Assembly (NCBI GenBank): GCA_902475865.1
Contig: CABSBK010000011.1
Coordinates: 1-11,327 of the forward strand
DNA: 11,327 nt
Direction: 5' to 3'
Source of the DNA: an uncultured Collinsella sp.
Lineage (GTDB): Bacteria > Actinomycetota > Coriobacteriia > Coriobacteriales > Coriobacteriaceae
Every line of letters begins with the position of its first letter. Position 1 is the stretch's first letter. Position numbers and translations under genes: made by a program. Positions 129 through 11,254 of the stretch are shown one piece after another. The notes below the pieces were generated by a model that was not told the DNA's origin, did no database searches, and saw only the letters and a list, made by a program, of their open reading frames with translations.

Positions 129-145
129 GACAACAACACGTCACG

Positions 146-174
146 TGGTTACTACCAGTTTAGAAACCACTGGT
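146..174 (+). promoter_or_regulatory. dre-like GntR/HutC operator upstream of agaF
   Basis: TGGTTACTACCAG at 146-158 contains TGGT-N4-ACCA, the layout of DasR/NagR-type dre operators of amino-sugar regulators (core TGGTCTAGACCA). The same 13 bases recur exactly at 4439-4451 before agaS. A second overlapping dyad, ACCAGT (154-159) with ACTGGT (169-174), could bind a second dimer. The GntR-family gene at 3667-4398 is the obvious candidate regulator. Confidence 0.75.
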
Positions 175-274: not shown

Positions 275-718
275 ATGGTTGGCTTTATTCTTACCGGTCA
301 TGGACAGTTCGCACCCGGCCTTGCAAGCGCTATCGCTATGGTTGCCGGCGACCAGCCTGCTTTTACCGTCGTTCCTTTTGAGGGCGACCAGGCCGCATCC
401 TACGGTGAGGATCTCCGCGCCGCTATTACCGCCATGCGCGAGGAGTGCGATGGCGTGCTCGTCTTTACCGACCTGCTTGGCGGCACCCCGTTCAACCAGT
501 CGATGATGATTGCCCAGGATGTCGACAACGTCGAGGTTCTGACTGGCACCAACCTTCCCATGGTTATTGCGCTTCTGTTCCTCCGCGGCAATGCCACGCT
601 CGCCGAGCTTGGCGAGCAGGCCGTGACCGTTGGCCAGACGGGCGTCACCGCCCAGACGGTCGCATCCGTTGCCGGCTCCGAGGAAGAGGATATCTTCGGC
701 GACGAGGACGGCATCTAA
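275..718 (+). CDS. agaF: PTS Man-family EIIA component (AgaF-like)
   Basis: Cytoplasmic IIA phosphocarrier of a mannose-family PTS. It takes phosphate from HPr and passes it to the IIB protein. The 147-residue length fits stand-alone IIA proteins of the AgaF/ManX type. The N-terminal motif TGHGQFAPGL places the phosphorylated histidine at residue 9, and the conserved DLLGGTPFNQS lies near residues 66-76. The start is ATG 275, with GAAGGGA 8 bases upstream. The last 15 residues form an acidic tail ending in EDGI, longer than the fold needs; the IIC of this operon also ends in EDGI. The stop overlaps the next start (TAATG), which implies translational coupling. The first gene of the operon, it lies behind a dre-like operator. 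GalNAc specificity is inferred from the neighbouring agaS and deacetylase genes and the AgaV-like IIB; the IIA alone does not prove it. Confidence 0.93.
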   Translation: MVGFILTGHGQFAPGLASAIAMVAGDQPAFTVVPFEGDQAASYGEDLRAAITAMREECDGVLVFTDLLGGTPFNQSMMIAQDVDNVEVLTGTNLPMVIALLFLRGNATLAELGEQAVTVGQTGVTAQTVASVAGSEEEDIFGDEDGI

Positions 719-999
719 TGGCCGATTTCGGAGCCAACGTCCTGAGCTCCTCGGTCGCCCTTTTAGGCCTGCTTGTCATCATGGGCTTGATTTACACCAT
801 CTGGTCGCAAATCAACATGAAGAAGAAGCAGAAGTACTTCAAGGAGCTGCACACCGAGCTCAAGCCGGGTCAGGAGGTTCTTTTCGCCGGCGGTATCTAC
901 GGAACCGTCAAAGGCATCGAAGGCGAGAAGGTCCAGATCAAAGTCCGATCCGGAGCCGTCGTAGATGTTTCGCGTTACGCGATTCAGGAGATCAAGTAA
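718..999 (+). CDS. YajC-like small membrane protein within the PTS operon
   Basis: A 93-residue protein with the YajC layout: one hydrophobic N-terminal helix (about residues 10-30), a basic stretch MKKKQKYFKEL, then a small soluble domain with LKPGQEVLFAGGIYGTV and VVDVSRYAI, matching the YajC core (GdxVxxxGGIyGtV). YajC normally sits with SecDF at the translocon. Here it is placed between the IIA and IIB genes and its ATG overlaps the agaF stop (TAATG), so it should be made together with IIA. No secD or secF is near. From memory, Man-family PTS loci for host glycosaminoglycans in streptococci also carry a yajC gene after IID. I infer an accessory role in insertion or stability of the IIC/IID membrane complex rather than general secretion. 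Family is well supported; function is not shown. Confidence 0.85.
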   Translation: MADFGANVLSSSVALLGLLVIMGLIYTIWSQINMKKKQKYFKELHTELKPGQEVLFAGGIYGTVKGIEGEKVQIKVRSGAVVDVSRYAIQEIK

Positions 1000-1035: not shown

Positions 1036-1518
1036 ATGGCAGAACCCAACATTCTTCTTACCCGCATCGATAACCGACTGGTTCATGGTCAGGTTGCCAC
1101 CCAGTGGAACTCCACCCTGGGCTCCAACCTCATCCTCGTCGCCAACGACGACGTGGCGTCCAACACCATGCGCCAGAACCTCATGAAGATGGCCGCTCCC
1201 GCCGGCGTCGCTACGCGTTTCTTCTCTCTGCAGAAGACCATCGACGTCATTGGCAAGGCGAGCCCGCGCCAGAAGATCTTCATCGTGGCCGAAACACCGG
1301 AAGACGTGCTTACGCTCGTCAAGGGCGGTGTGCCTATAAAGAAGGTAAACATCGGCAACATGCACATGTCGGAAGGAAAGCGCCAAGTCGCCACCTCCGT
1401 CGCAGTTAACGACGAGGATGTCGCTGCGTTTAAAGAGCTGCAGGAATTGGGGGTGGAGTTGGAGATCAGGCGCGTTCCGAGCACGCCTGTTGAGGACACG
1501 AGCAAGCTCTTCTCGTAA
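1036..1518 (+). CDS. agaV: PTS Man-family EIIB component (AgaV-like)
   Basis: Cytoplasmic IIB that receives phosphate from IIA and transfers it to the sugar during import through IIC/IID. It is 160 residues. The active-site motif RIDNRLVHGQV puts the phosphorylated histidine at residue 17 (codon CAT 1084-1086). Further family motifs are ANDDVA, RFFSLQKTID, LVKGGVPI and NIGNMHMSEGKR. From memory, these resemble E. coli AgaV/AgaB more closely than ManX IIB. The start ATG 1036 follows GAAAGGAAG. It lies 36 bases after the YajC-like gene and about 90 bases before IIC; that gap holds two hairpins. A second copy without the histidine lies at 10772-11254. The family is certain; GalNAc/galactosamine specificity is a context-based inference. 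Confidence 0.93.
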   Translation: MAEPNILLTRIDNRLVHGQVATQWNSTLGSNLILVANDDVASNTMRQNLMKMAAPAGVATRFFSLQKTIDVIGKASPRQKIFIVAETPEDVLTLVKGGVPIKKVNIGNMHMSEGKRQVATSVAVNDEDVAAFKELQELGVELEIRRVPSTPVEDTSKLFS

Positions 1519-3666: not shown

Positions 3667-4398
3667 ATGGCGATCGGAGCGCGTAAGCAACCGCTGTACG
3701 ATCAGCTGGTCGATATTCTGACCGAAAAGATTGGCCATGAATATCGCGCCGGTGACATGATTCCTTCCGAGCGCGAACTTTCGGAGCGCTATGGTCTCTC
3801 GCGCACTACGGTACGCCTGGCTCTGCAGGAACTGGAGCGTTTAGGACTGGTGGTTCGGCAGCACGGTCGCGGTACCTTTGTGACCGACCGTTCGGCAAAA
3901 GCAACCAATCTTATGCAGTCCTACAGCTTTACCGAGCAGATGCGCGCGATGGGTCGAGAACCCGAGACCACGATTCTCGAGTTTTGCGAGATGGAGGCCG
4001 ATAAGAATCTGGCCGAGCATATGGGATTGCGCATCGGTGATCGCATTTTTAAGCTCAAGCGCCTTCGTTCTGCCGACAACATGCCCATGATGGTCGAACG
4101 CAGCTATCTACCGGTTCGTCAATTTCTGTCCCTAAAGCGACCGCTGCTGGAGCGTAAGCCGCTTTACGATGTGATTGAGCAGGACTTTCAGCAAAAGATT
4201 CGCGTGGCCGAAGAGGAGTTCTATGCGAGCATAGCCCGTCCCACCGATGCCCACCTTTTGGGAATTGTCGAGGGCTCGCCTGTGCTCGATTTGGTCAGGA
4301 CTACGTATAACGAGTCAAACGAGGTAGTGGAGTACACACTCTCGGTTGCTCGTGCCGATCAGTTTAAATACAAGGTTTACCACCAGCGCAGTAACTAG
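3667..4398 (+). CDS. agaR: GntR/HutC-family repressor with UTRA domain, probable amino-sugar regulator
   Basis: DNA-binding transcription factor of 243 residues. The N-terminal winged helix (about 8-74) shows the GntR signature PSERELSERYGLSRTTVR and the wing HGRGTFV. The remainder (about 90-237) is a UTRA effector domain, with the typical segments KRLRSAD, VERSYLP and EYTLSVARADQFKY. This is the architecture of NagR/DasR-type regulators that bind phosphorylated amino sugars and release DNA. Start ATG 3667 follows GGGAGG. It sits between two transcription units that both carry TGGTTACTACCAG upstream, matching the dre operator plan of this subfamily, so I infer that it controls agaF and agaS. 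Effector would be GalNAc-6-P, GalN-6-P or a relative. There is no terminator between it and agaS, so read-through is possible. Confidence 0.9.
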   Translation: MAIGARKQPLYDQLVDILTEKIGHEYRAGDMIPSERELSERYGLSRTTVRLALQELERLGLVVRQHGRGTFVTDRSAKATNLMQSYSFTEQMRAMGREPETTILEFCEMEADKNLAEHMGLRIGDRIFKLKRLRSADNMPMMVERSYLPVRQFLSLKRPLLERKPLYDVIEQDFQQKIRVAEEEFYASIARPTDAHLLGIVEGSPVLDLVRTTYNESNEVVEYTLSVARADQFKYKVYHQRSN

Positions 4399-4437: not shown

Positions 4438-4458
4438 CTGGTTACTACCAGATAACCA
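4438..4458 (+). promoter_or_regulatory. dre-like GntR/HutC operator upstream of agaS
   Basis: CTGGT-TACT-ACCAG (4438-4451) is a perfect 5-bp-arm palindrome; its 13-base core is identical to the site before agaF. It is nested in a wider dyad, TGGTTA (4439-4444) with TAACCA (4453-4458). It covers the place of the -35 element for the TATAAT at 4468, so binding should block RNA polymerase. Confidence 0.8.
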
Positions 4459-4512: not shown

Positions 4513-5679
4513 ATGTTCGAGAAGAGTGTCGAGGAGCTCACCGAGCTCGGCGCCCAGATCACCACGGCCGAGATTGCTCAGCAGCCCGAGCTTTGGCGTG
4601 ATACGCTCAACATCTATCGCGAGAACAAGGAGGCCATCGAGGCCTTCCTGGCCGAGGCTCGCGCTATGGGCGAGGGTCGTCTGTCCGTTGTCTTCACCGG
4701 TGCCGGTACGTCCGACTACGTTGGCGATACCTGCGCCCCGTACCTGCGTCACGCTGGCAACACTGATCTCTACGACTTTAAGCCCATCGCCACGACCGAC
4801 ATCGTGAGCGCCCCGCGCGACTTCCTGCGCGCCGAGGATCCCACGCTCGTGGTTTCCTTCGCCCGCTCTGGCAACAGCCCCGAGAGCCTTGCCGCCGTTG
4901 CCGTTGCCAAGGAGCTCGTCCACAACGTCAAGTTCCTCAACATCACCTGCGCTCCCGAGGGCAAGCTCGCCGTCGAGTCTGCCGATGATCCCAACGCGCT
5001 GACGCTGCTCATTCCGCGCGCCAACGACAAGGGCTTCGCCATGACCGGTTCTTATTCCTGCATGACCCTGCTCTCTACCCTTATTTTCGACACTGCCTCT
5101 GATGAGCAGAAGGCCGAGTGGGTCGAGACGATTGCCAAGATGGGCGAGGAGGTCATCTCCCGTGAGCCCGAGATCGCCGATTACCTGGCTGGCGACTTCA
5201 ACCGCGTGACCTACTTGGGTTCTGGCTCCTTCGGTGGCCTTGCCCAGGAGAGCCAGCTCAAGATCCTCGAGCTCGCTCACGGTCTGGTCGCTACTTCCTA
5301 CGACACCTCCATGGGCTATCGTCATGGACCTAAGTCCTTCGTCGACGATAAGACGCTCGTCTTCGTGTTCGTCAATAACGACGCCTACACCCGTCAGTAC
5401 GACATCGACATCCTCAACGAGATCGGTGGCGACGAGATCGCTCAGCACACCATCGCCGTTCAGCAGGAAGGTGCCACCGTCTACGAGGGCGAGTCCTTCA
5501 CCTTTAAGGGCTACGAGGCACTTCCCGAGGGCTACCTTGCTCTGCCGTTCGTGATGTTTGCCCAGGCTATCAGCCTGCTCAACTCCGTGCGCGTGGGCAA
5601 CACGCCCGACACGCCGAGCCCCACTGGCACGGTCAACCGCGTGGTTAAGGGCGTGACGATTCACCCCTTCACCGCTTAA
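4513..5679 (+). CDS. agaS: AgaS: galactosamine-6-phosphate deaminase/isomerase (SIS domains)
   Basis: Cytoplasmic enzyme that converts galactosamine-6-phosphate to tagatose-6-phosphate and ammonia. It has 388 residues (E. coli AgaS is 384) with two SIS domains. Motifs in order: FTGAGTSDYVGD (61-72), SFARSGNSPES (115-125), GFAMTGS (174-180), YLGSGSFGGLAQES (234-247), YRHGPKSFVDD (269-279) and the C-terminal GNTPDTPSPTGTVNRVVKG (362-380), which from memory is nearly the same in E. coli AgaS and marks this subfamily off from GlmS or NagB. The start is ATG 4513, with GAGAGAGG about 9 bases upstream. It is the sole gene of its unit: own TATAAT, own operator and own terminator. It is the strongest evidence that the locus handles GalNAc/galactosamine rather than mannose. 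Confidence 0.95.
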   Translation: MFEKSVEELTELGAQITTAEIAQQPELWRDTLNIYRENKEAIEAFLAEARAMGEGRLSVVFTGAGTSDYVGDTCAPYLRHAGNTDLYDFKPIATTDIVSAPRDFLRAEDPTLVVSFARSGNSPESLAAVAVAKELVHNVKFLNITCAPEGKLAVESADDPNALTLLIPRANDKGFAMTGSYSCMTLLSTLIFDTASDEQKAEWVETIAKMGEEVISREPEIADYLAGDFNRVTYLGSGSFGGLAQESQLKILELAHGLVATSYDTSMGYRHGPKSFVDDKTLVFVFVNNDAYTRQYDIDILNEIGGDEIAQHTIAVQQEGATVYEGESFTFKGYEALPEGYLALPFVMFAQAISLLNSVRVGNTPDTPSPTGTVNRVVKGVTIHPFTA

Positions 5680-5757: not shown

Positions 5758-5796
5758 CATCACCACAGTCAACTGCTTTAGAAGCGAGGAGTGCAT

Positions 5797-6966
5797 ATGA
5801 GCACGTACGCAATTAAGGCTGACAAGTTCTTCTTGCCGGCAGGCCCGCAACTGGGCGGCTATCTTATGGTCGAGGATGGCGTCTTTGGCGCCTGGCAGGC
5901 CGACGAGCCCTCTTGCGAGATTAAGGACTACACGGGATCGTGGATCGCACCGGGTATGGTCGATACTCACATCCATGGCTTCTACAACCACTCAACTACC
6001 GATAACGATCCCGAGGGCATCGATATCAGCTCGACCGAGCTCGCCCGTCGCGGTACCACCAGCTGGCTGCCCACGACGTTCACCGATGGCGTCGAGCAGA
6101 TCAAGGACGCCTGCGCCGCCATCGCTCAGGCGGACGAGGGTCGCGGCCCCGACTTCTGCGGTGCCCGCATTCAGGGCATCTACCTGGAGGGCCCCTTCTT
6201 TACCATGAAGCACGTGGGCGCGCAGAACCCCGCTTACCTCATCGATCCCTCCGAGGAGGTCTTCGATCAGTGGCAGGAGGCTGCGGGTGGTCGCATCGTT
6301 AAGAGCGCCATGGCGGCCGAGCGCGACGGTGCCGCTGCTTATGCGGCTGCTCTGAACGCCAAGGGTGTGGTGACCAGCATCGGTCACTCCGACGCCACCT
6401 ACGATGAGTGCATCGCCGCCATCAACGCCGGTGCCAGCTGCTTTACGCATACCTATAACGGTCAGCGCGGGCTGCATCACCGTGAGCCCGGTGTCGTGGG
6501 CGCTGCCATGTCCACGCCCGAGACCTACGCCGAGATCATCTGTGACGGCAAGCACGTTAACCCTGCCGCCATCAAGGCGCTGCTGCAGGCAAAGGGCTGG
6601 CAACACACGGTGCTCATCACTGACTGCCTGGGCTGCGGCGGCATGCCCGAGGGCAGCTACACCAGTGGTGGCATGGACGTCATCATGAAGGACAACCTGT
6701 GCTGGCTCGCCGACGGCAAGAGCATTGCTGGCTCGGTGCTCACGCTTGCCCAGGGCGTCAAGAACATCGTCGACTGGGGCATCGCCAGCGCCGATATCGC
6801 CATTCGTATGGCAACCGAGGTGCCGGCACGCTCCGCGCACATCGAGGATAAGTGCGGCAGCATCATGCCGGGTCGCGACGCCGACTTTGTCGTGTTCGAC
6901 CATGAGCTTACCCTCGTCGAGACGTATGTTGGCGGCCAGAGCGTCGGCAACGCCTTTACCGAGTAA
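5797..6966 (+). CDS. nagA: N-acetylgalactosamine/N-acetylglucosamine-6-phosphate deacetylase
   Basis: Cytoplasmic amidohydrolase that removes acetate from GalNAc-6-P (AgaA) or GlcNAc-6-P (NagA). It has 389 residues, the normal size. Seen residues: the HxH pair H58/H60 in DTHIHG, metal-bridging E131 in YLEGPF, H197 in IGHSDATYDE, H218 in THTYN, H253 in DGKHVNP and the catalytic D276 in LITDCLG. The HxH pair makes it the two-metal type as in Bacillus NagA; E. coli NagA lacks those histidines. I use ATG 5797, 5 bases after AGGAG, instead of GTG 5791. Placed just after agaS, it supplies that enzyme's substrate. The sequence cannot separate AgaA from NagA specificity; context favours GalNAc-6-P. 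A relic of the tail of a related gene lies at about 9666-9824. Confidence 0.93.
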   Translation: MSTYAIKADKFFLPAGPQLGGYLMVEDGVFGAWQADEPSCEIKDYTGSWIAPGMVDTHIHGFYNHSTTDNDPEGIDISSTELARRGTTSWLPTTFTDGVEQIKDACAAIAQADEGRGPDFCGARIQGIYLEGPFFTMKHVGAQNPAYLIDPSEEVFDQWQEAAGGRIVKSAMAAERDGAAAYAAALNAKGVVTSIGHSDATYDECIAAINAGASCFTHTYNGQRGLHHREPGVVGAAMSTPETYAEIICDGKHVNPAAIKALLQAKGWQHTVLITDCLGCGGMPEGSYTSGGMDVIMKDNLCWLADGKSIAGSVLTLAQGVKNIVDWGIASADIAIRMATEVPARSAHIEDKCGSIMPGRDADFVVFDHELTLVETYVGGQSVGNAFTE

Positions 6967-8664: not shown

Positions 8665-8693
8665 TCGCATGTAGCCAATTCGTTTTGCAAGGC

Positions 8694-8718
8694 ATAAGGA
8701 GCCTGCGAGATAAGGAGC
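8694..8718 (+). repeat. Duplicated Shine-Dalgarno motif before lacC
   Basis: ATAAGGAGC occurs twice, at 8694-8702 and 8710-8718, 16 bases apart. The second is the functional ribosome site, 6-7 bases before ATG 8724. The first has no start codon at the right distance and could be a standby ribosome site or simply a small tandem duplication. Confidence 0.6.
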
Positions 8719-8723
8719 TAGAA

Positions 8724-9659
8724 ATGATCCTCACCGTTACGATGAACCCGTCCGTCGATACGCGCTATCAGCTCGATGAGCTCATTATCGACGACGTCAA
8801 CCGCGTGACGCCCGAAAAGACCGCCGGCGGTAAGGGCCTCAACGTGGCCCGCGTCCTGGGCCAGCTGGGCGACGATGTCGTGGCAACCGGCTTGCTTGGT
8901 GGTCATATGGGCGCCTATATGGCCGAGCTCATGGATGCCAACGGCATTAAGAATGATTTTGTGCCCATCAAGGGCGAGACCCGCATTTGCCTCAATATCC
9001 TTCATGCTGGCAACCAGACCGAGTTGCTCGAGAGCGGCCCGACGATTGCCCCCGAGGAGCTCGATGCCTTTACCGCCAAGTTCGCCGAGCTTGCGAGCAA
9101 GGCCGATGTCGTTACCATCTCGGGTTCGCTGCCCCGCGGCGTCGAGGCGGACTACTACGCCAAGATCACGGGCATTGCAGAGAACGCCGGCGCCAAGGTG
9201 CTGCTCGATACCTCGGGCGCCTCGCTCGAGGCTGCGCTCAAGTCCGAGGTCAAGCCTGAGCTGGTTAAGCCTAACCTGACCGAAATTAACGGCCTTCTGG
9301 GCACGAGCTTTACCACCGACGATGTGGACGAGCTCCGTTCCGCGCTCGCCTCTGACGCCCGCTTCTCCGATATCCCCTGGGTCGTCGTATCCATGGGCGC
9401 TGCCGGCTCCGTTGGTTTCCATAACGGCCGTGCGTTCCGCGCCAAGACCCCCGATATCCCCGCCGTTAACGCTACGGGCTCTGGCGATTCGACCATTGCC
9501 GGCTTCGCACATGCGATTGCTGCCGGAGCCGACGACGAGACGGTGCTGCGTACCGCCAACACCTGCGGCAAGCTCAATGCCATGGATCCCATGACCGGAC
9601 ACTTGGTTATGGATCGTTGGGATGAGGTTTACAACGGCGTTGTCGTGACCGAGCTGTAG
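8724..9659 (+). CDS. lacC: Tagatose-6-phosphate kinase (LacC, PfkB family)
   Basis: Cytoplasmic sugar-phosphate kinase, 311 residues, that phosphorylates tagatose-6-phosphate to tagatose-1,6-bisphosphate with ATP. The N-terminus MILTVTMNPSVDTRYQLDEL, the PfkB signature KTAGGKGLNVARVLGQLGDD (32-51), ISGSLPRGV (132-140), KPNLTEI (182-188) and the ATP/catalytic motif ATGSGDSTIAG with D255 as catalytic base are all present. The C-terminal MTGHLVM and the GSGDST form (not GAGDS) fit LacC more than FruK or PfkB. The start is ATG 8724. It uses the AgaS product, so it completes the GalN-6-P branch up to the bisphosphate; no LacD or GatY/KbaY aldolase is in this window. The TAG stop is followed in the same frame by a deacetylase relic with no stop until 9822. 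Confidence 0.92.
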   Translation: MILTVTMNPSVDTRYQLDELIIDDVNRVTPEKTAGGKGLNVARVLGQLGDDVVATGLLGGHMGAYMAELMDANGIKNDFVPIKGETRICLNILHAGNQTELLESGPTIAPEELDAFTAKFAELASKADVVTISGSLPRGVEADYYAKITGIAENAGAKVLLDTSGASLEAALKSEVKPELVKPNLTEINGLLGTSFTTDDVDELRSALASDARFSDIPWVVVSMGAAGSVGFHNGRAFRAKTPDIPAVNATGSGDSTIAGFAHAIAAGADDETVLRTANTCGKLNAMDPMTGHLVMDRWDEVYNGVVVTEL

Positions 9660-10538: not shown

Positions 10539-10614
10539 TGGAGCCAGCGACCGGGCTCGAACCGGTGACCCCCGCTTTACGAGAGCGGTGCTCTACCAAC
10601 TGAGCTACGCTGGC
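10539..10614 (-). tRNA. trnT: tRNA-Thr (anticodon CGT)
   Basis: On the minus strand, the 76-base gene folds as a full cloverleaf. The acceptor GCCAGCG pairs with CGCTGGC, followed by T and an encoded CCA. The D arm is GTAGCTCAGTTGGTAGAGCA. The anticodon stem CCGCT/AGCGG encloses loop CTCGTAA, giving anticodon CGT, which reads ACG threonine codons. The T arm contains GGTTCGAGCC. All standard positions look normal. Confidence 0.97.
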
Positions 10615-10682: not shown

Positions 10683-10771
10683 GTGTTCTGACGGCTTTTC
10701 TCACTTTAAATGCACTAATATTGGAGACGCGATGTCTTGCTCTTACGGGTCTCAAACAGAATGGGGCAGCG

Positions 10772-11254
10772 ATGACTCAACCCAAGATTCTTCTCGCACG
10801 CATCGACGACCGTTTCATTTACGGACAAGACGTTGAGCTGTGGAACGAAGCCGTGGGTTCCAACCTTGTCCTAATCGTCAACGATGAGATCGCGGCAGAT
10901 TCGCGCCAATGGGCACCCATGAGGGTGGCGGCGCCAGAAGGCGTTTGGACGCGGTTTTTCTCGGTACAAAAGGCCATCGACATCATTCATACCGCAACGC
11001 CTCGCCAATTGATTCTGATCATGGTGGCCTCACCCTCCGATGCGCTCGCGCTGGTTAAGGGCGGTGTGCCAATAACCAAGATTAGTATCGGCCATATGCG
11101 GGCGGGGGAGGGCAAGCGCTCTGCAACGCCTGCCGTTGCCGTAGGCGATACAGACATCGCCGCCTTCAAAGAGTTGCAAAAGCTCGGTATAGAGCTAGAA
11201 ATCCGCTATCTCCCCAGTTCCGCCCCCGATCCCATCGGCAATCTGTTCAACTGA
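10772..11254 (+). CDS. Orphan PTS EIIB-like protein lacking the active-site histidine
   Basis: A 160-residue Man-family IIB protein, the same length as the operon IIB and about 53% identical by ungapped hand count (85 of 160). The scaffold is kept (RFFSVQKAID, LVKGGVPITK, AAFKELQKLGIELEIR), but the active-site motif reads RIDDRFIYGQD: residue 17, the phosphorylated histidine, is tyrosine (TAC 10820-10822). Residues next to it (20-23) and 45-49 have also drifted. It therefore should not carry phosphate in the normal way. I chose ATG 10772 because it restores the exact family N-terminus; a TTG at 10721 would add 17 unrelated residues. The ribosome site (GGGG) is weak and no clear promoter is seen. 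There is no IIA, IIC or IID beside it. It is either a decaying paralogue or a non-catalytic partner or regulator of the main PTS; the long intact frame favours current or recent selection. Confidence 0.9.
   Translation: MTQPKILLARIDDRFIYGQDVELWNEAVGSNLVLIVNDEIAADSRQWAPMRVAAPEGVWTRFFSVQKAIDIIHTATPRQLILIMVASPSDALALVKGGVPITKISIGHMRAGEGKRSATPAVAVGDTDIAAFKELQKLGIELEIRYLPSSAPDPIGNLFN

Follow-up and report, generated by a model that had tools for sequence, protein, structure and literature searches.

The open reading frame at 718-999 of a DNA stretch from the Collinsella aerofaciens group was confirmed to encode a genuine YajC inside a Collinsella N-acetylgalactosamine (GalNAc)-type PTS operon. YajC, a small membrane protein best known for assisting protein secretion, is mostly discussed together with SecDF. 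The copy described here very probably has a role linked to the PTS and not to SecDF, and we consider it rather probable that it belongs to a subfamily of YajC that is dedicated to this type of N-acetylgalactosamine PTS and amounts to an additional small subunit of the permease. The dedication is well supported, while the contacts within the transporter are those that we infer. Since this YajC has been retained without SecDF and is tied to one sugar transporter, the operon provides a natural separation in which the partner and action of YajC can be addressed in isolation.

The features of the window, by which we mean the whole analyzed stretch of 11,327 nucleotides, are given below.

145-158, plus strand: operator-like palindrome GTGGTTACTACCAG preceding the operon and its IIA gene (pattern search)
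275-718, plus strand: EIIA (AgaF-like), PF03610 (EIIA-man) 82.3 bits, acidic C-terminal tail ending EDGI, stop codon TAA at 716-718
704-708, plus strand: GAGGA, putative Shine-Dalgarno-like site of YajC (by its sequence), inside the codons of the EIIA tail
718-999, plus strand: YajC open reading frame, 93 aa, start codon ATG at 718-720
739-810, plus strand: transmembrane segment of YajC, approximately residues 8-31 by visual inspection, motif L-[A/S]-S-S, exit without Pro-Gln
1036-1518, plus strand: EIIB with HGQ motif (HGQ also in the relatives compared), PF03830 (PTSIIB_sorb) 185.5 bits
1609-2409, plus strand: EIIC (AgaW-like) with the tail EDGI, PF03609 (EII-Sor) 229.4 bits
2399-3481, plus strand: EIID, PF03613 (EIID-AGA) 292.7 bits
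3041-3307, plus strand: EIID insert, about residues 215-303 (about 90 residues), from alignment and model, predicted beta-rich
3667-4398, plus strand: GntR/UTRA regulator in the operon, PF07702 and PF00392
4438-4451, plus strand: operator-like palindrome CTGGTTACTACCAG before agaS (pattern search)
4513-5679, plus strand: AgaS-family sugar isomerase/deaminase, TIGR02815 400.2 bits, under the cut-off of 529.2
5791-6966, plus strand: NagA/AgaA-type deacetylase, TIGR00221 301.1 bits, above the cut-off
8685-9659, plus strand: tagatose-6-phosphate kinase-like protein, NF010033 363.4 bits, under the cut-off of 469

The genes were arranged in the order IIA, YajC, IIB, IIC, IID, GntR/UTRA, AgaS, and NagA-type deacetylase, with the tagatose-6-phosphate-kinase-like gene further downstream, and judged by sequence this content fits the import and breakdown of N-acetylgalactosamine. 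The IIA, IIB, IIC, and IID domains together with the GalNAc pathway genes mark a Man-family Aga (GalNAc)-type PTS at the sequence level, and the equivalog scores stayed under their cut-offs (AgaF, NF040761, 124.6 against 130; AgaW, 231.5 against 300; AgaE, 279.6 against 500). The histidine of the EIIB HGQ motif is presumably the phospho-site. The true start of EIID is likely the ATG at 2399, which gives an 11-nt overlap with the IIC stop, instead of the 2366 of the open reading frame list; this inner ATG was kept in 18 of the 18 relatives examined. When the window was searched with CTGGTTACTACCAG allowing at most two mismatches, two matches were found against 0.03 expected, the copy before IIA having one mismatch, and the palindromes at 145-158 and 4438-4451 are possibly operators of the GntR regulator.

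Three further observations concern the surroundings of the operon. An orphan EIIB paralog at 10721-11254 carries YGQ in place of HGQ (Tyr for His), as in all seven of the C. aerofaciens-type loci compared, and may be an inactive EIIB that has taken on a regulatory role. A tRNA-Thr (CGT) lies on the minus strand at 10539-10614, flanked by the YhcH gene and the orphan EIIB. Locus L001 holds a NagA-like partial stretch (18977-19105, 74-86% identity) between the tagatose kinase and YhcH genes, as do 16 further C. aerofaciens-type loci, and this stretch is perhaps what remains of a second deacetylase gene.

The product of 718-999 scored above the cut-offs of both PF02699 (Pfam YajC; 60.2 bits, 1.8e-16, cut-off 28.2) and TIGR00739 (yajC; 52 bits, cut-off 44.2), with EIIA-man and PTSIIB_sorb domains on its two flanks, in agreement with the first-pass annotation, which had described a YajC-like protein embedded in a Man-family PTS operon. 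It did not belong to the YajC group NF005100 (PRK06531), for which it reached 24.9 bits, far under the cut-off of 129. The AlphaFold2 model (mean pLDDT 86.1, pTM 0.51) showed one long helix at residues 2-46 and five strands within residues 53-92, which is the N-terminal membrane helix and small barrel expected of a YajC. The protein is thus predicted to have one transmembrane helix followed by an SH3-like barrel, which would be cytosolic by the positive-inside rule. Only one PDB fold match was obtained at E ≤ 0.001, namely 9a7v_A (E 6.1e-7, TMq 0.69), and 9a7v is, from its PDB title, an integrative YrbF-GlpD model. We take YrbF to be the YajC of B. subtilis. A profile built from PTS-linked and SecDF-linked YajCs together matched the YajC chain of 2rdd, from E. 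coli, in the PDB, along with five chance-looking ubiquitin rows, three of which ranked above 2rdd, and a profile of the PTS-linked YajCs alone matched no PDB chain.

The position of the gene was strongly conserved. The order IIA-YajC-IIB-IIC-IID-GntR was found in 43 of 43 Coriobacteriia loci, followed by AgaS and NagA in 42 of them, the remaining locus stopping at a contig end; a 44th YajC match was from Saprospiraceae and had no PTS match. The YajC protein itself was 100% identical in 9 of the 44 loci found. As had been noticed earlier, YajC starts on the stop codon of EIIA (agaF), the ATG at 718 sharing one base with the TAA at 716-718. Among 58 rows, of which eight were second copies of a locus already counted, this one-base overlap recurred in 46 of the 50 distinct loci, and the other four had gaps of 9-33 nt. 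The IIA-YajC-IIB arrangement is not due to chance.

The genome-wide counts were made in relatives of the window source, using a class sample of 119 genomes and an order sample of 297, which overlap. An ortholog of the window IIC (68-100% identity, at least 372 bits, the next best match reaching 137 bits) was found in 22 of the 119 class-sample genomes, and these were exactly the 22 genomes with a PTS-linked YajC. Man-type PTS without any YajC occurred in 17 of 39 class-sample genomes. Up to ten Man-type IIC matches were counted in one genome, and the other Man-type PTS there were without YajC. The order sample contained 77 genomes with a YajC above the cut-off, 78 with the IIC ortholog (E ≤ 1e-40), and 75 with both, always at a YajC-IIC spacing of 619-824 nt; 220 of the 297 genomes had no YajC above the cut-off. 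The suggestion that YajC is associated with the PTS instead of SecDF was thus borne out by a nearly one-to-one pairing with one PTS ortholog group. In the phylum sample (246 genomes), the nine genomes with an IIC ortholog of at least 372 bits were all already in the class sample.

Five exceptions in the order sample were inspected (G505, G386, G463, G544, and G570). G505 had YajC between IIA and IIB, with no IIC match after IIB and a partial IID, while the YajC of G386 was a partial Sec-type sequence bearing RPQ on a 3.3-kb contig and is probably contamination. G463, G544, and G570 carried the orthologous PTS operon without YajC. YajC was therefore kept in 76 of 79 orthologous operons, G505 included, and the three operons without it indicate that it is not strictly required by the PTS. 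The IIA-IIB gap of G570 (L165 5366-5557) has, by eye, the look of a shortened YajC in two frames, with a start, part of the helix, and the last residues; the YajC profile gave only 4.2 bits on this gap. If this reading as a remnant is right, the absence of YajC from G570 would be a secondary loss.

The search was extended to plasmids. YajC matched seven plasmid records, none of them of Bacillota. IID matched 341 records, from which ten regions were examined (four of E. faecium and one each of Enterococcus sp. DA9, E. raffinosus, E. faecalis, L. paracasei, E. coli, and Photobacterium), annotation being absent for three and incomplete for some others; the YajC profile had no match on the 1254 open frames of these ten regions. 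No Bacillota sequence was present among the named matches listed from protein searches (the best 120 of 211, 120 of 508, and 8 of 8, most rows being nameless).

Two features of the permease were considered as YajC-specific traits and rejected. The ends of IIA and IIC are both acidic-(D/E)GI, in 50 of 50 distinct loci for IIA and 49 of 50 for IIC, the exception being the IIC of L042, which has an in-frame stop. Four further YajC operons had IIA ending in EDGI (three) or GGI (one), two of the three YajC-less orthologous operons had GL instead of GI at the IIA end, and the paralogous IICs compared ended differently. However, the same ends were found in the aga-type PTS of E. coli, Photobacterium, and L. 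paracasei without a YajC match, which makes the tail characteristic of this type of PTS and not of YajC. The tail of IIA and IIC in the aga-type PTS is a possible shared docking end; in this type of operon the IIC tail codons overlap the IID start codon. The second feature was the EIID insert (mean pLDDT of the model 69.9, with ten-residue blocks of 72-82 over residues 221-300), which is probably located on the outer face. All 19 IIDs aligned from this operon contained it, and many paralogous IIDs had shorter frames. Since other IIDs without YajC also reach 340-390 codons as open frames, the insert was left out of the evidence.

None of the ten window proteins scanned with Pfam was SecD or SecF, as the first-pass annotation had stated for the vicinity of the gene, and the same separation was seen across genomes. 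YajC was above the cut-off in 69 of the 119 class-sample genomes. Forty-five of these YajCs (77-105 bits) lay within 2.8 kb of SecF and 22 (44.6-64.4 bits) within 0.82 kb of a Man-type IIC, while none of the 69 was near both, so that 0 of the 22 PTS-linked genes was near SecF; the other two were on contigs with neither neighbor, in genomes that have SecDF. SecDF (PF02355) was found in one of the 22 PTS-linked genomes and was absent from 21, and SecD (TIGR01129) was missing in 26 of 27 PTS-YajC genomes. Since YidC was found in all 27, the absence of SecD is not explained by poor assemblies. Twelve of 12 relatives searched had a single YajC whose coordinates were those of the PTS-linked copy, and none of the 12 had a SecD/SecF domain (PF02355), a search that gave a match in 12 of 14 known genomes used as a control. 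Judged in the relatives, the two marks of a SecDF-YajC complex, SecD and SecF in the genome and a gene adjoining secD/secF, were therefore missing.

Usually yajC stands between tgt and secD. In G124, the one exceptional genome, a tgt-like gene (named by reading) is followed by secD and secF; the 163 nt that separate the tgt-like gene from secD hold no yajC, and the sole YajC of this genome belongs to a PTS operon in which order and overlap are as in the others. SecDF without YajC occurred in up to 22 class-sample genomes, which is an upper figure because some SecDF rows were weak or partial (G029, G093). Four genomes (G056, G067, G077, and G090) showed a second YidC-like domain in long open frames (679-1430 codons) besides a normal YidC.

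The two kinds of YajC were also separated in the protein tree, which included 39 PTS-linked sequences, 30 SecDF-linked sequences (the best-scoring 30 of 47), and one from Bacteroidota (93 columns, unrooted). The PTS-linked YajCs split from the rest with an SH-aLRT of 99.9 and UFBoot of 100 on a branch of 1.04, so they were not mixed with the SecDF-linked ones; such mixing was what the first-pass annotation had named as contrary to its idea. The helix motif L[A/S]SS was present in 38 of 39 PTS-linked YajCs and in none of the 30 SecDF-linked ones, whereas Pro-Gln at the helix exit was found in 0/39 and 30/30, respectively. Four further PTS-linked YajCs had L[A/S]SS (three) or LGAS (one). The barrel glycines at positions 51, 58, 59, 62, and 79 were common to both kinds. 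Among nine comparisons within the C. aerofaciens group, the three with dS of at least 0.1 gave a dN/dS of 0.04-0.05, while the other six had dS under 0.09 and a ratio of 0 to 0.30 or undefined. The PTS-linked YajC is under purifying selection.

We propose that the YajC helix would pack against IIC/IID in the membrane, while the cytosolic SH3-like barrel may hold or order the soluble components beside the permease, IIA first and perhaps IIB; alternatively, YajC may stabilize the assembled PTS complex. IIA is favored as the partner because the YajC gene overlaps the IIA gene. Since three orthologous operons and the E. coli aga operon lack YajC, it would improve or tune the transporter and not be essential to it. 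The tether or accessory-subunit mechanism in particular is held only tentatively, because profile, order, and overlap show association and not mechanism. It is doubtful, though conceivable, that YajC has evolved into a fifth membrane-anchored subunit of the PTS permease, with the helix binding IIC/IID and the barrel capturing IIA/IIB, and with the Sec role gone together with SecDF in Coriobacteriales. If true, YajC would in general act as an adaptor that joins membrane complexes to partners in the cytosol, and SecDF would be one of several clients. The likelihoods that we attach to these readings and to the alternatives overlap and do not sum to one, as the assembly and regulation alternatives share the PTS-dedication half of the broad reading.

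An unlikely but serious alternative is that YajC acts as an assembly or insertion factor, working transiently with YidC/SecYEG in the insertion or folding of IIC and IID and staying outside the mature transporter. The YidC carried by all 27 PTS-YajC genomes, the interaction of S. mutans YajC with YidC1 in the portion of the source available to us (PMC8546722), and the beta-rich IID insert, which could need help, are in its favor. However, the other Man-type PTS of the same genomes, with up to ten IIC matches, do without YajC, the YajC gene overlaps that of soluble IIA and not IIC or IID, and three operons keep such an IID without YajC.

It is improbable that YajC is a transport regulator, with a barrel that senses the state of IIA/IIB or with YajC binding IIC/IID to throttle import, as AcrZ does on AcrB. 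The fixed place of the gene beside IIA would suit such a role, as would the similar binding sites on AcrB that a review, consulted in part, assigns to YajC and AcrZ (PMC10710835). Nevertheless, no sensor domain or phospho-site was seen in the window YajC, for which Pfam returned YajC alone, and a GntR regulator, together with operator-like sites, is already present in the operon.

The first-pass annotation had reasoned that, with no other yajC in the genome, this gene would be the housekeeping copy, that is, the last YajC, still serving a general Sec/YidC route and merely relocated into the PTS operon. Its premise agreed with the sole YajC in 12 of 12 relatives, and the partly available source describes S. 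mutans YajC beside YidC1 and SecYEG (PMC8546722). The conclusion failed, because SecD/SecF are absent too (0/12, and SecD in 1/27) and this PTS is the only context in which the gene was found. Its presence follows one PTS ortholog group, the tree split and changed helix set it apart, and the 220 of 297 order-sample genomes without YajC indicate that the order has no need of a general YajC, which makes this alternative decidedly improbable. That YajC is a passenger without a PTS role, carried by linkage, is highly improbable, since the three YajC-less operons, among them the one with an apparent remnant, stand against a dN/dS of 0.04-0.05 where measurable, its retention in 76 of 79 operons, and the conserved overlap and order. 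The reading that we prefer remains a YajC dedicated to this PTS.

The PTS-linked YajC resembles that of the SecDF-YajC system (E. coli YajC; TIGR00739, PF02699) in its family by profile and in its layout of an N-terminal helix and small barrel, but it does not lie beside secD/secF, SecD is missing in 26/27 genomes, Pro-Gln is absent (0/39), and it is separate in the tree. SecDF-independent activity has precedent. When overexpressed, the YajC of E. coli is reported to counteract the LdrA membrane peptide, an action without SecDF, and other SecDF-independent roles are cited in the same source, of which we had a part (PMC12643268). The 2rdd entry of the PDB contains YajC, and AcrB is its partner there according to the parts available of two sources (PMC12643268; PMC10710835). 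The YrbF-GlpD model (9a7v), our best fold match, is alike in that a YajC is modeled with a soluble metabolic enzyme, and differs in partner and organism; it is known here from the PDB title alone. No paper on YrbF-GlpD was found, and the accessible part of PMC10090944 contained neither YajC nor YrbF. The YrbF-GlpD and AcrB precedents concern partners other than a PTS.

The E. coli aga PTS (AgaF, AgaV, AgaW, and AgaE; L161) is 53% identical to the window in IIB, 42% in IIC, 47% in IID, and 37% in IIA, and has the same acidic-GI ends on IIA and IIC. It differs in that IIA follows IID, IID has 294 aa with an insert that is far smaller if any, and the aga stretch has no YajC match, although the E. 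coli genome has one (control search). As to the host, the operon resembles the gut GalNAc pathway that a human-genetics study, available to us in part, linked to ABO blood group, with C. aerofaciens among others; in that study GalNAc was used by two C. aerofaciens strains that carry genes of the pathway, a result not tied to the window operon (PMC10808065). The words yajc, translocase, and secdf are absent from its main text.

Glycosaminoglycan (GAG) loci are a further close known system. The first-pass statement that streptococcal loci of this kind carry a yajC agrees with the Man-family GAG PTS loci listed for S. pneumoniae in the part of PMC6722419 at hand, and the hyaluronan PTS locus of C. 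perfringens has yajC (CPF_0405) directly after EIIA in the part of PMC11496695 at hand. The position next to IIA, earlier taken to be peculiar, is consequently shared. On hyaluronan, the table of the latter source gives an expression change of 6.59 for EIIA, 8.51 for yajC, and 2.4-2.8 for EIIB-EIID; its available text gives no tested function for this yajC. A literature search that mostly excluded subscription journals brought up no description of PTS-paired YajCs in genomes lacking SecDF. The S. pneumoniae and C. perfringens loci, compared by description and not by sequence and from sources seen in part, thus share with the window a yajC in a Man-family PTS locus but carry ugl and hepC, whereas the window holds an aga operon. 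A PTS-locus yajC is already listed for Streptococcus and Clostridium, and the SecDF-free pairing of YajC with a PTS is the new part.
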